Shown here: positions 15,405 through 45,526 of the stretch, piece after piece
Position numbering within the stretch: the first letter of the stretch is position 1
How the letters are laid out: every line of letters starts with the position of its first letter
From: Nocardioides sp. J54
Lineage (GTDB): Bacteria > Actinomycetota > Actinomycetes > Propionibacteriales > Nocardioidaceae
Reading direction: 5' to 3'
Length of the DNA: 64,000 bases
Assembly (NCBI RefSeq): GCF_000519005.1
Contig: NZ_JAER01000004.1
Span: 143,162 to 207,161, forward strand
Position numbers and translations under genes: made by a program
The notes under the pieces: generated by a model
What the model saw: only the letters and a program-made list of their open reading frames with translations
Database searches by the model: none
Told to the model about the DNA's origin: nothing

Positions 15405-15492
15405 CCACACGAGGTGCGTGACTTTCCACCGCGACGTGCGCGAGCTCGCACCACGAAGTGCGCCAGTTCGCGCCACGAGGTGCGCGGGAGCT
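15405..15492. repeat. Tandem array of 22-nt units (array A)
   Basis: Four units start at 15405, 15427, 15449 and 15471, each exactly 22 nt. They share the core CACGAGGTGCGC (variants GACGTGCGC, GAAGTGCGC). The array is intergenic, between the secreted-protein gene and the aldo/keto reductase, and lies 33 bp from array B, which has the same period. A 22-nt unit cannot encode a repeated peptide in one frame. Confidence 0.75.
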
Positions 15493-15525: not shown

Positions 15526-15613
15526 GCCAGAAGTGACCATTCGACGCGCCGGAAGTGACCACTCAACGGGCCGGAAGTGACCACTCAACGGGCCAGAAGT
15601 GACGCCTCGACGG
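15526..15613. repeat. Tandem array of 22-nt units (array B)
   Basis: Four 22-nt units start at 15526, 15548, 15570 and 15592. The middle two are identical (GCCGGAAGTGACCACTCAAC plus GG); the outer two differ at 3-5 positions. The array ends 11 nt before the aldo/keto reductase stop, so it would form that gene's 3' UTR. In reverse complement the unit matches a unit of the 44893-45075 array at 21 of 22 positions. Confidence 0.85.
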
Positions 15614-30669: not shown

Positions 30670-30793
30670 GCCGGCGACTCTACTCGCGAGTCACATACGC
30701 GGTCGTTGTCGTCGCGCACAACGCCGGGCGGGTCCGGGGTGGGCGCGGGACCGGTGGCGGCACCACCACGACCGGCACCTCGGACGGCCATGA

Positions 30794-30903
30794 GGCGCAC
30801 CTCGCGCAGCCACGACGCGCACCTCGCGCAACCACAAGGCGCACCCCGCGCAACCACAAGGCGCACCCCGCGCAACCACAAGGCGCACCTCGTCGGGCGC
30901 AGG
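30794..30903. repeat. Tandem array of 22-nt units (array C)
   Basis: Units start at 30794, 30816, 30838, 30860 and (degenerate) 30882, all 22 nt apart. The third and fourth are identical (GGCGCACCCCGCGCAACCAC plus AA). In reverse complement the core GAGGTGCGC matches array A. It fills the gap between the dehydrogenase start and the stop of the DHA2 exporter at 30908. The rest of the gap (30670-30793) shows only the leaderless promoter at 30677-30682. Confidence 0.82.
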
Positions 30904-35055: not shown

Positions 35056-36996
35056 CTACTCGGAGGACCCGTCCGACGGGTCGTCGCTCGGGTCGGCTCC
35101 CGGCAGGGACCCGAGGCCCTTCTCGATCTTGTCGAGGTACTCCTGCAGCGCGAACACCTCGTCGGTGGCGGGCTTCGTGATCTCCACGTCCTCGTCGAAC
35201 TCGGAGAACTCGAAGGAGTCGACCTCGCTCTCCTCGACCCGCATCAGGTAGTGCGGCTCGGCGACGCGCACGTCGAGGACCTCACGGTTCGGGCCCTCCG
35301 TCTGCTCGATGCGCACGGTCGACTCACCGTTGACCGTGCCCGTGCCGACCCGGGTCGCCGTGGCCCCCTCACGGCCGTCGCGCTCGAGGAACTCGTCGAG
35401 GTCGCAGAAGGACTCGGTGCTCTCGACGAGGGACTCCTCCTCCACCCAGCGGTCGCCGATCACCGTCAGCAGCAGGGTGGTCGTGGCCGGGTCGTCGCTG
35501 CTGGCGTTCCAGAACGCGCGGTCGGCGCGGATGTAGACGGTCCCCCCGACGCGCAGCAGCTCCGCGGTGCCCCCAGCGGCCGCGGACGTCATCGTGCCCT
35601 GGCAGTCGCCGCGGGTGGTGGCGACGACGTCGACGGTGAGGGTGTCGGTGCCGTCGCCGAAGGTGCCGCGGATCCGGGCGGTGCGCACCACGGCCATGTC
35701 CTTCTCGGCGGCCTGCAGGATCGCGGTCGGCTCCAGGGACAGGAAGTCGTCCTCGGGGTCGTCCGGGTCGTCTCCGCCGGTGAGCAGCGCCGCGCCGATG
35801 CCGCCGGCGAGGGCGAGCGCCGCGGCCACCCCTCCGGCGACCCACCACCGCCGGCTGCCGCGCCGCTGCCCGGACGGCCCCTGCGTCGGCGTGCCGAGGA
35901 GGTACGACGGCGGCGGGGTCGGGCTGCGGCCGGGGCCTGGGCTGGCGGCCGGTGCCGGGGCCGGACTCGGGGCCGGACTCGGGGCCGGCACGGGGCTGGG
36001 CGACCCGGGCACCGCGGGCGGCGCCGCCGGGGTCGGCCGCTGGCCGGTCGGCCGCTGGCCGGTGGGCCGCTGGCCGGTCGCACGCGCCACGGGCCGCAGG
36101 GCGGTCGTGCCCGGGCCCTGCGGGACGGCGGCGCCGGGGGTGGCCGGCAGTCGCAGCGCGGCCTGCAGGTCGGCTCCCATCTCGGCGGCGGACTGGTAGC
36201 GGTCCGCGGGGTCCTTGGCCATCGCCGTGCGCAGGATCCGGTTGGTCGCGTGCACCATCGCGCTGTCGCCGCCGAGCTGCGGCACCGGTTCGCGCACGTG
36301 CGCCGCGACCAGCTGGTACTCCGACATCCCGCGGTAGGGAGGCGCACCGGTGAGCGCCACCCAGAGCACGCACCCGAGCGCGTAGATGTCGCTCGAGGGA
36401 CCTGCCATCGCACCGCCGTGGAGCTCCGGCGCCATGTAGGACGGGGTGCCGGCCGCGGTGGTGCTGAACCGGGTGGCGTCGGCGTTCATCCGCCGGGCGA
36501 TGCCGAAGTCGGCCAGGTAGGCGCGCATCGCACCGGCCCGGCGTCGTACCAGCACGTTGCCGGGCTTGATGTCGCGGTGCACCAGGCCGGCGTCGTGGGC
36601 GTCGGAGAGCCCGCTGGCGACCTGCTCGATCAGCTCGAGCGCCTCGACCAGGCTGGGCGGCCCCTGGCTGCGGATCAGCTCGCCGAGGTCACCACCGGGG
36701 ATCAGCTGCGTGGCGATGTAGAGGTAGCCGTCCTCCTCGCCGTGCGCGTAGACCGCGACGACGTGCGCGGACTCCAGCGACGCCTGCGCACGGGCTTCCC
36801 GGGTGAACCGCTCCCGGAACTCCGGGTCGTGGGCGAAGAGCGGTGCGATGACCTTGAGGGCGACCTCGCGGCCCAGGTTCTCCTCGCGGGCCCGGAAGAC
36901 GACGCCCATCCCGCCCTGGCCCAGCTGCTCGAGCAGCAGGAACCGACCGATCCGCGTCCCGGGCGCGGGTTCGGACGGCAGGGACGGTGGGGGCAC
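35056..36996 (-). CDS. Membrane Ser/Thr protein kinase with lipoprotein-like ectodomain
   Basis: A 646-aa PknB-like kinase. The kinase domain (about 16-285) has the Gly loop LGQGGMGVVF, Lys48 in VALKVI, HRDIKPGNV (140-148), DFGIA and MAPEL. A Pro/Ala-rich linker with three TGQRP repeats precedes one transmembrane helix (about 385-406). The extracellular part (410-646) ends in an acidic tail. This ectodomain is clearly homologous to the lipoprotein encoded at 43309-44055: shared segments include RADRAFW versus KADDAFW, CDLDEFL versus CDLDELL, and PHYLMRV versus PHYLLRM. It may sense the same cell-envelope ligand. It has a GTG start with TAGAAA 6 nt upstream. Confidence 0.93.
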   Translation of the reverse strand: MPPPSLPSEPAPGTRIGRFLLLEQLGQGGMGVVFRAREENLGREVALKVIAPLFAHDPEFRERFTREARAQASLESAHVVAVYAHGEEDGYLYIATQLIPGGDLGELIRSQGPPSLVEALELIEQVASGLSDAHDAGLVHRDIKPGNVLVRRRAGAMRAYLADFGIARRMNADATRFSTTAAGTPSYMAPELHGGAMAGPSSDIYALGCVLWVALTGAPPYRGMSEYQLVAAHVREPVPQLGGDSAMVHATNRILRTAMAKDPADRYQSAAEMGADLQAALRLPATPGAAVPQGPGTTALRPVARATGQRPTGQRPTGQRPTPAAPPAVPGSPSPVPAPSPAPSPAPAPAASPGPGRSPTPPPSYLLGTPTQGPSGQRRGSRRWWVAGGVAAALALAGGIGAALLTGGDDPDDPEDDFLSLEPTAILQAAEKDMAVVRTARIRGTFGDGTDTLTVDVVATTRGDCQGTMTSAAAGGTAELLRVGGTVYIRADRAFWNASSDDPATTTLLLTVIGDRWVEEESLVESTESFCDLDEFLERDGREGATATRVGTGTVNGESTVRIEQTEGPNREVLDVRVAEPHYLMRVEESEVDSFEFSEFDEDVEITKPATDEVFALQEYLDKIEKGLGSLPGADPSDDPSDGSSE

Positions 36997-44130: not shown

Positions 44131-44823
44131 TCAGTGCCAGAGCACCTCGCGGGCCCACACGGGCACCAGGTCGCCGGCGCGGCCGTGCCGCGCCTCGTGG
44201 AAGAAGTGCGAGCCCTCGCTGGGCTCGAGGTTGAGCTCCAGGGTGCGCGCGCCGTGGCGGCGGGCGTGCTGGACGAAGCCGGCGGCCGGGTAGACCGCAC
44301 CCGAGGTGCCGATCGAGACGAACAGCGTCGCCTCCGACAGCGCGTCGGCGATCCGGTCCATCTCGTAGGGCACCTCGCCGAACCACACCACGTCCGGTCG
44401 CAGGTCGGCGACGCCGCAGCCGGGGCACGGCGGCTCGTCGGACAGCGGGCCCTGCCACGGGACCGACTGCTGGCACGCGCGGCACAGCGCCCTGAGCAGC
44501 TCGCCGTGCATGTGCACCACGCGCTTCGAGCCGGCCCGCTCGTGCAGGTCGTCGATGTTCTGGGTCACCACGAGCAGGGCGTCACCGAGGGTCTCCTCGA
44601 GCTCGGCCAGCGCGACGTGCGCCGGGTTGGGCTCGACGCGCGCCAGCGCGGCCCGTCGCTCGTCGTAGAACCGCTGCACCGTGGCGCGGTCCCGGTCGAA
44701 GCCCTCGGGCGTCGCGACGTCCTCGATGCTGTGCCCCTCCCAGAGACCGTCCTCGTCGCGGAACGTCGGCACCCCGCTTTCGGCGGAGATGCCGGCACCG
44801 GTGAGGACGACGATCTGGGGCAC
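44131..44823 (-). CDS. cobB: NAD-dependent protein deacylase (sirtuin)
   Basis: A 230-aa class III sirtuin that removes acyl groups from lysines using NAD+. GAGISAESGVPTFRD binds NAD+, TQNIDDLHERAG contains the adenosine-contacting motif, HMHGE holds the catalytic His, and CRAC...CPGC is the zinc site. The GTG start has TAGCCT 6 nt upstream (leaderless). In a region rich in acyl-CoA synthetase and dehydrogenase genes, deacylation of such enzymes is a plausible function. Confidence 0.92.
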   Translation of the reverse strand: MPQIVVLTGAGISAESGVPTFRDEDGLWEGHSIEDVATPEGFDRDRATVQRFYDERRAALARVEPNPAHVALAELEETLGDALLVVTQNIDDLHERAGSKRVVHMHGELLRALCRACQQSVPWQGPLSDEPPCPGCGVADLRPDVVWFGEVPYEMDRIADALSEATLFVSIGTSGAVYPAAGFVQHARRHGARTLELNLEPSEGSHFFHEARHGRAGDLVPVWAREVLWH

Positions 44824-44892
44824 GTCGCGAGGCTACCCGCCGTACCCGTGACCGCCGTCACCGTCCCACCCCTCGCACCCCTCCCTCCCCGC

Positions 44893-45075
44893 TCGTCGAG
44901 ACGTCACCTGTGGCCTGTCGAGACGTCAGTTCGGCCCGTCGAGTGGTCACTTCCGGCCCGTCGAGACGTCACTTCCGGCCTGGCCAGCCACAAGTGACCA
45001 GTCAACGAGCCACAGGTGACGACTCGACAGGCCACAGGTGACGTCTCGACCAGCCACAGGTGACGTCTCAACGAG
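44893..45075. repeat. Inverted double array of 22-nt units (array D)
   Basis: Four units run in one orientation (starts 44893, 44915, 44937, 44959). After a 7-nt TGGCCAG spacer, four units follow in the opposite orientation (starts 44988, 45010, 45032, 45054), all 22 nt. The core is GTCGAGACGTCAC..GGCC in the first half and CCACAGGTGACGTCTCGAC in the second. The last unit overlaps the stop codon of the thioesterase gene (45068-45070). It is the same family as array B. Confidence 0.88.
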
Positions 45076-45526
45076 GGGCGGGGCGGTGGAAGATCCGGCT
45101 GGTGACCGACGCGCTGGCGACGAGGCGGTCGTCGGCGTCGTGGACGGTGACCTCGCTGTGGGTGCCGGAGCGGGTGCGGTGCACGACCGTGGCTGTGGCG
45201 ACCAGGTCGGAGGACGCCGCAGCGAGGTAGGCGAGCGAGAGGTGGGTGGTGGCGCCGCCGCTGGCGCCGTCCTCGGCGTCGGCGGAGGTGAGGCCGGAGG
45301 CCGAGGCGGCCGCTCCGGCGACGTCGACGAGGGTGGCGACCACGCCGCCGTGCAGGACGCCGGGGACCGTGGTCAGGTCGTCGCGGAAGGCCAGCCCGAG
45401 GCGCACCCGCTCGGGGGCGGCGTCGAGCACGGTGACGCCGAGGTGGCGGGCGATGGGCGACGCGGCGAGGACGTCCTCGATCCAGTGGCGGGCGACGGGG
45501 TCGAGGGTGGCGGCGGGTGCGGTCAT
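45068..45526 (-). CDS. PaaI-family thioesterase
   Basis: A 152-aa hotdog-fold acyl-CoA thioesterase. GVLHGGVVATLVDVAGAAAS is the catalytic helix region with the conserved HGG and Asp, and LSLAYLAAASSDLVATATVV the following strands. GAGGAGG precedes the ATG. It could release free acids from CoA esters made by the neighbouring acyl-CoA genes. The stop codon lies inside a 22-nt repeat unit, so the array probably defined or replaced the original 3' end. Confidence 0.87.
   Translation of the reverse strand: MTAPAATLDPVARHWIEDVLAASPIARHLGVTVLDAAPERVRLGLAFRDDLTTVPGVLHGGVVATLVDVAGAAASASGLTSADAEDGASGGATTHLSLAYLAAASSDLVATATVVHRTRSGTHSEVTVHDADDRLVASASVTSRIFHRPAPR

Follow-up and report, generated by a model that had tools for sequence, protein, structure and literature searches.

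The inverted array at positions 44893-45074 of the window (the whole 64,000-nt stretch of Nocardioides sp. J54 DNA that was analyzed) belongs to a family that extends throughout the genome from which it comes, with at least 53 arrays in that genome (the own genome, below). The reading we favor, at roughly even confidence, is that the arrays are DNA-level platforms for a putative sequence-specific binding protein. A dispersed repeat that spreads by copying is a serious rival, and both can hold. The element itself has four minus-strand and four plus-strand units flanking CTGGCCA (Table 1), so that the inverted double array of four plus four units in the original prediction is real, with its coordinates now resolved. 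The units had been described as exactly 22 nt long. This is correct for seven of them and wrong for 44915-44935, which has 21 nt. Read on the minus strand, the unit at 44936 is GCCGGAAGTGACCACTCGACGG, which, as predicted, equals the units at 15548/15570 at 21 of 22 positions. The thioesterase stop codon (TCA at 45068-45070, gene on the minus strand) does fall inside the last unit.

Table 1. Positions of the element, its neighbors and the other arrays in the window.
Feature	Position	Strand	Remarks
Degenerate 22-nt units, second type (CGARGTGYG core)	15408..15486	+	
Single-arm array, unit type as in 44893-45074	15526..15613	+	4 units; stop codon 10 nt away
Array of second unit type	30766..30897	-	6 units; stop codon 10 nt away
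Sir2-family deacetylase gene	44131..44823	-	start 69 nt from array
C-rich outer border, left arm	44861..44892		by inspection; G-rich stretch right of 45074
Left arm, outermost unit	44893..44914	-	22 nt
Left arm, unit 2	44915..44935	-	21 nt, 1 base shorter; spacing 43 = 22+21
Left arm, unit 3	44936..44957	-	22 nt; 21/22 identity with 15548/15570 units
Left arm, innermost unit	44958..44979	-	22 nt
Center CTGGCCA	44980..44986		without the CGTACG of 14/22 two-arm type A centers (own genome)
Right arm, innermost unit	44987..45008	+	
Right arm, unit 3	45009..45030	+	
Right arm, unit 2	45031..45052	+	
Right arm, outermost unit	45053..45074	+	contains thioesterase stop codon 45068-45070
Hotdog-fold thioesterase gene	45068..45526	-	end within array

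Chance periodicity can be rejected as the origin of these repeats, given the excess in the window at lag 22 and at its harmonic, lag 44. Among lags 13-45 there are four periodic stretches at lag 22, three at lag 44, one each at lags 15, 27, 30, 36, and 43, and none at the remaining lags. The other arrays of the window are placed at 15526-15613, 15427-15486, and 30766-30897. For comparison, 20-kb stretches of other genomes, 19 in all, yielded two matches at lag 22 (one of them in G003, at an identity of 0.76) and two at lag 21, with more matches at lags divisible by three, which is the pattern of coding repeats. G003 also has a 22-nt array with another core (GTTCGCGCGTCAAGAATC, L088:3151-3298), possibly a further family. 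The only Rfam match above the gathering score in the window is a tRNA. At 36031-36080 the window has a tandem repeat of 15 nt, GGTCGGCCGCTGGCC, which is probably coding.

The family is genome-wide. When 44893-45074 is used as a BLAST query against the own genome there are 88 matches, with the best 40 of 77 candidates scored. Clustering the matches of three queries gives at least 30 loci of the kind found at 44893-45074 (type A) and at least 23 of a kind related to that at window 30766-30897 (type B). The number of arrays depends on the method, being 30 + 23 loci by clustering, 54 in the set used for gene context and 53 in the set used for unit matrices, and all of these are lower bounds because the best 40 candidates were scored per query. 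Read in one direction, the two types have a common core, CGAG-NN-G, and similar ends. They are therefore probably related. Arms, where both are present, are inverted toward each other. Two arms are found in 22 of 31 type A arrays of the own genome, 12 of 14 arrays in the relative G077 and nine of 11 in the relative G001; 10 of 23 type B entries are two-armed at a plausible distance, one of which is a mis-assigned type A array. Arm length, the number of units per arm and the spacing of the center vary between arrays. A CRISPR array can be rejected, as the units abut with no spacers between them. The own genome also has an array of 21-nt units, CCGAGTTGTCGGTTGTCGTGG, at G000:C56:7747-7841, with a similar pair at G033:C1:20389.

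One clue to what the arrays might do is how their units vary. Type A has 252 units in the own genome, and the unit matrix had missed only one of its interior units. Among 141 interior units (a tally that leaves out the degenerate units beside the center), 13 of the 22 positions are conserved at 87-100% and nine at 40-68%. Five of those nine are almost exclusively purine or exclusively C/G. The unit score declines from 29.6 bits in the outermost units to 22.6 bits beside the center. Units in opposite arms of a locus agree at 15.7 of 22 positions, which is no closer than units from different loci (15.9); mirror-paired units agree at 15.9. Adjacent units within an arm are alike at 17.2 of 22, and this higher likeness looks like a sign of local duplication. 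The original prediction that the period, near two turns of the helix, stays constant as the sequence drifts has held up.

A second clue is the spacing between the arms. Innermost units of type A arrays are 26-29, 39-41, 49-51, 60-61, 73, 116, or 149 nt apart, and all 22 two-arm arrays lie within 2 nt of 28+11n (p about 3e-8, with arrays assumed independent and a rule drawn from the same data). In other words, the spacing of type A centers follows the DNA helix. The distance is 29 nt in eight of 12 G077 arrays, the others having 19, 20, 81, and 137 nt, and in G001 it is 28 nt once and otherwise 48-53 nt. For type B, the distance deviates by no more than 2 nt from 35+11n in seven of nine arrays, the offset being picked post hoc. 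The centers are often palindromic. GTAC occurs in 15 of 22 type A centers (shuffled mean 3.1, maximum 9), 14 of which contain CGTACG, and GTAC occurs in five of 10 type B centers (shuffled mean 1.5, maximum 6). The centers of L126, L131, and L118 form perfect stems of 14-19 bp, with a tetraloop or none, and their sequences differ from one another. At the other end of the arms, the outermost units are distinct in both relatives: they start with GCC at 20 of 26 ends in G077 (inner units, 23 of 81) and at 16 of 20 in G001 (inner units, 12 of 67). The outermost-unit signature in the own genome is not significant (38 of 53 vs. 124 of 196, p 0.33).

What if the two arms act as RNA? The original prediction included a terminator or insulator, and inverted arms, once transcribed, would form a long hairpin that stops transcription from either side. 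We consider this bidirectional terminator improbable. The fold energies of real arrays were compared with those of chimeras that join arms of different loci. For type A (20 arrays) the energies are -147.0 kcal/mol for real arrays and -146.7 for chimeras, and for G001 (nine arrays) -143.1 and -143.2. Since these folds equal those of chimeras, pairing there follows from the consensus that the units share and is not specific to the locus. This is not universal. Real type B arrays (n = 9) fold better than chimeras (-151.4 vs. -143.3 kcal/mol), and G077 (11 arrays) has a small excess (-106.6 vs. -103.0). In a minority of tips the stability exceeds that of every chimera: L126, L128, and L129 in G001, L113, L118, and L119 in G077 and, in the own genome, L043 and L056 (type A) and L073 (type B). 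The arms do pair through their consensus, and type B and the G001 and G077 tips speak for a terminator. Nevertheless, an RNA hairpin with compensating arms is not supported for type A and G001 by the unit comparison and the chimera folds, and a stem selected at each locus, which is what defines an intrinsic terminator, was not found in type A and G001; type B and some tips fold better.

The position of the arrays relative to genes also bears on the terminator. Of 54 arrays of the own genome, 27 have convergent neighbors, 26 co-directional neighbors and one divergent neighbors. The baseline for 54 neighboring gene pairs of the window is 10, 34, and 10. Arrays inside genes were tallied as co-directional in the own genome and in G077, and genes were called with a home-made codon model that was trained on the own genome and applied to the other species too. 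Convergent or co-directional locations thus account for 53 of 54 own arrays and 14 of 14 in G077 (seven of each, none divergent). The counts are six convergent, three co-directional, and no divergent for the nine G001 arrays with genes on both sides, and 29, 24, and three for 56 arrays of named public genomes. A stop codon lies within 20 nt of the array end in 33 of 53 own arrays, at 21-100 nt in 12 and further away in four, with none within reach in the last four. This stop-codon proximity and the 27 convergent locations are what a terminator would predict. So is the presence in G077, by inspection, of a hairpin at four sites that are occupied by an array in the own genome (L224/L040, L227/L057, L230/L075, L247/window 30765). 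Against this, at L040 and L049 of the own genome the stop codon is followed by a separate hairpin ahead of the array, also by inspection.

Other features of the surroundings are less uniform. Among stop-adjacent ends, the first unit begins exactly 9 nt past the stop codon at six of 18 in G077 and five of 13 in G001, and the own genome has no such 9-nt peak. In G077 and G001 the outermost unit is bordered on its outer side by about 8 nt rich in pyrimidines. A recurrent gene beside the arrays finds no support among the 40 own-vs-own matches listed, which are distant paralogues (26-56% identity). On the chromosome, five of 40 scored G001 arrays lie at 1.5-3.0 Mb and all 14 G077 loci at 1.2-4.0 Mb. 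Tn7 and Mu transposases bind tandem sites of about 22 bp at both inverted ends of the element. Could the arrays be paired ends of a cargo-less transposon of that kind? Arms that are inverted and made of tandem units about two turns long would fit, as would the distinct outermost unit in the two relatives. However, unit number and spacing are variable, the array flanks look like inverted C-rich/G-rich borders and not like direct duplications (by inspection), and some addresses are common to different species (see below). This origin is very unlikely.

The strongest departure from an intergenic element is that some arrays lie inside genes. Arrays with a 21-nt period traverse open reading frames in frame, and we infer their translation from the open frames. 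A gene for a copper-type P-ATPase (copA) has an array at the same place in G001 and Nocardioides luteus, and a CydD-CydC fusion has arrays at the same two places in both. CobB, a putative cobaltochelatase, a BenC-BenD fusion, DnaX, CarB, and a histidine kinase have an array in a single genome each. In the fusion (L182:5238-7940, N. luteus), BenC and BenD form one open frame with the array in the linker. For the named set, 11 of 43 arrays with a 21-nt period lie within called genes as opposed to none of 23 with a 22-nt period; three of the 11 are doubtful (L178, L188, and the second L219 array, which has a single arm and could be an ordinary coding repeat). In-gene arrays number one of 14 in G077, three of 11 in G001 and one of 53 in the own genome. 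The last is in fliK, and it alone among the own-genome arrays retrieved keeps a period of 21 nt from end to end. The fliK orthologue of G077 bears an array too, and the center palindrome CGTCGTACGAC, read as Arg-Arg-Thr-Thr, is kept in both. None of 75 arrays examined with a 22-nt period is within a gene, as expected from frame-keeping. The argument that a 22-nt period rules out a coding repeat is sound for 44893-45074, but the family also has 21-nt arrays that do occur as coding repeats. Two-arm arrays within the frames of copA, cydDC, cobB, the histidine kinase gene, and fliK argue against termination as the common function. Together with type A arms that pair without regard to locus, they make the predicted terminator unlikely as a common role, although individual arrays may act as terminators.

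How far does the family extend? As a query, 44893-45074 finds matches in eight of 58 genomes, the own genome included. The core pattern at 20/21-nt spacing has any match in 58 of 215 genomes of the genus, and 44 to 416 core sites occur in ten of them (G083, G060, G011, G001, G073, G180, G157, G015, G219, and G190), where the reversed pattern as a control has 0-1 sites. The type B core at 21/22-nt spacing, sought in 391 genomes of the order, has 111 sites in the own genome, 64 in G033, 53 in G178, 42 in G153, 23 in G091, 18 in G162, 13 in G227, eight in G075, and five in G063, and the matches listed for those eight relatives have a period of 22 nt. A pattern scan of public genomes yielded 72 loci, 54 of them titled Nocardioides. 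Similar inverted or tandem arrays occur in Marmoricola endophyticus and in metagenome assemblies of Nocardioidaceae and Propionibacteriales. Thirteen loci of other taxa were left out of the named-genome counts; seven of these were inspected and are coding-type or other repeats, and six (L190, L196, L199, L208, L213, and L218) were left out by taxon alone. Two doubtful loci, L188 (Brevibacterium) and L195 (Serinicoccus), were retained. A 22-nt tandem repeat in a Brevinematales metagenome assembly (L155, about 1210-1450, GGATGACACCTCGACAAGCTCG) fits the pattern and looks unrelated.

One relative shows that an address can be shared when the sequence is not. The thioesterase of G077 is 81% identical, and the same gene pair there flanks an inverted double array with a period of 21 nt, the units of which (GTCGACTTGCCACTT...) differ from those of the own genome. 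The original prediction had staked its case on further copies in the genome and on arrays at homologous loci of relatives, and both exist: at least 53 arrays, and this one. The next best thioesterase matches (G033, G063, and G014) have no periodic stretch and, by inspection, another following gene. Searching G077 by similarity to its thioesterase-locus array gave 14 loci, and eight of these are orthologous to array loci of the own genome, with arrays unlike the own ones in sequence and period. About 0.2 would be expected to be shared (53 of an assumed 4,500 junctions have arrays), a chance of about 1e-12 for eight of 14. In the reverse check, pieces of 42 array-adjoining genes of the own genome were sought in G077. 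Six of the 30 loci inspected, with orthology taken as best match, have arrays, of which L229, L242, and L249 had been missed by the similarity search. This brings the shared places to 11 among 53 own arrays. At L249, about 0-110 nt past the stop codon, G077 has an inverted array of AAACTC units, and the own genome has type A there (L060). No array was detected at the other 24 of the 30 G077 counterparts, and four have a hairpin (by inspection).

These comparisons bring in the serious rival, a selfish or neutral dispersed repeat resembling REP/BIME or RPE elements, the units of which would be copied by a putative enzyme, tolerated and homogenized in each genome. We regard it as possible, if less than probable. 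The arrays are patchy across the genus, and linkers between the conserved cores tend to be typical of the genome, although GGTTTCT is common to G091, G162, and G178. Both leave room for spreading by copying. Several own array sites with a hairpin or no array in G077 point the same way. So does CarB, where the array of one metagenome assembly lengthens a variable loop by about 26 residues: none of 30 genus loci listed has an array there, and 57 of 59 genus genomes have a carB match. However, element length, unit number per arm, and center spacing vary, so that the arrays are not copies of one element. In addition, core positions are almost unmutated while others spread over several letters, and some addresses are common to species with different units. 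The predicted small mobile repeat thus stays as a rival, one whose best-known machinery was not found in the own genome: a search for the Y1 transposase of the RAYT family (PF01797) found none there or in G001 and G077, and one among 215 genus genomes, with the control positive in five of 14 known genomes. An REP driven by RAYT is rejected on these grounds.

Comparison with known systems sharpens the point. REPs prefer convergent and co-directional 3' ends and often lie within 20 bp of flanking genes, according to one account (PMC3733652). The present arrays share with REP/BIME elements, as described there, their high copy number, inverted orientations, and 3'-end preference, and this likeness favors the spreading repeat. 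They differ in their tandem 21/22-nt period and in that some lie in genes. In REP/BIME elements each unit forms a short hairpin whose end is tagged; here the units are tandem 22-mers that by inspection have no stem-loop of their own, and pairing arises between arms. Rickettsia palindromic elements (RPEs) are inserted in frame into unrelated metabolic genes (PMC10969869), and in-frame presence within genes, found here too, likewise favors a spreading repeat. However, RPEs measure about 150 bp, and here there are seven-codon units in variable number, mostly outside genes, with some addresses held across species. Nor is there a homogeneous element with fixed ends as in MITEs or RPEs, since arm lengths, unit numbers, and centers vary. 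Another parallel is the operator of KfrA on plasmid RA3, where direct repeats switch direction and one filament-capable protein binds (PMC7783346). The likeness is in direct repeats that run one way and then the other; the KfrA repeats are 9 nt long and belong to one plasmid operator, whereas here 21/22-nt repeats occur in tens of chromosomal places and the protein is putative.

SARP regulators act at promoters, where they recognize TCGAG-type heptamers repeated at intervals of 11 or 22 bp. The arrays resemble these in having a TCGAG-like core every two helical turns and differ in avoiding divergent intergenic regions (one of 54). No description of such arrays was found among the titles and abstract openings listed from the openly licensed PubMed Central literature.

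We favor a protein platform. Variation limited to certain positions, helical phasing, specialized outer units, and tolerance of passage in frame suggest that a protein recognizes double-stranded DNA unit by unit. In the proposed mechanism, 44893-45074 would be one of a dispersed set of inverted, iteron-like arrays in which each 21- or 22-bp unit is one site for a putative sequence-specific DNA-binding protein. Neighboring copies of the protein would line up along a single helical face, presumably binding cooperatively. The two arms would be directed toward each other, with a phased and often palindromic center between them. The units would work at the level of duplex DNA, not through an RNA hairpin. 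Arrays would be kept where occupancy is harmless, that is, directly past stop codons, and also in frame in linkers and loops if the period is divisible by three. A shift in the specificity of the protein, or copying of units between arrays, might respell the units throughout a genome, with some of the addresses retained. The arrays would probably serve as a chromosome-scale scaffold, perhaps a loop anchor or a boundary between transcription units. The protein-binding scaffold of the original prediction is thus retained as the best reading, its protein being putative.

Some observations do not fit the platform. Recent copying of units would also explain why linkers tend to be shared within a genome. 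Adjacent units of an arm bear signs of local duplication, the distribution in the genus is patchy, no array was detected at 24 of 30 inspected G077 counterparts, and the own genome has no significant outermost-unit signature. The evidence is also weaker in type B, with its post hoc spacing offset, GTAC counts near the shuffle maximum and folds better than those of chimeras.

If arrays are platforms, they could be part of something larger. Perhaps they form a chromosomal addressing system, in which a fast-evolving DNA-binding protein, with paralogues for each unit type, acts on tens to hundreds of arrays, and specificity and sites change together between species while partly inherited addresses stay. 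This is akin to eukaryotic centromere proteins and satellites, and we advance it tentatively. In any case, the arrays would be genome-wide bacterial DNA sites, some of whose places outlive their sequences. Their frame-keeping passage through the open frames of core enzymes makes selection on them readable, and gene callers can be misled, since stop codons may fall within units. If bound by a protein, they would offer a natural experiment on how a protein and hundreds of its sites evolve together, and perhaps on bacterial chromosome domains too. If instead they spread by themselves, they would constitute mobile or satellite DNA of a new kind.
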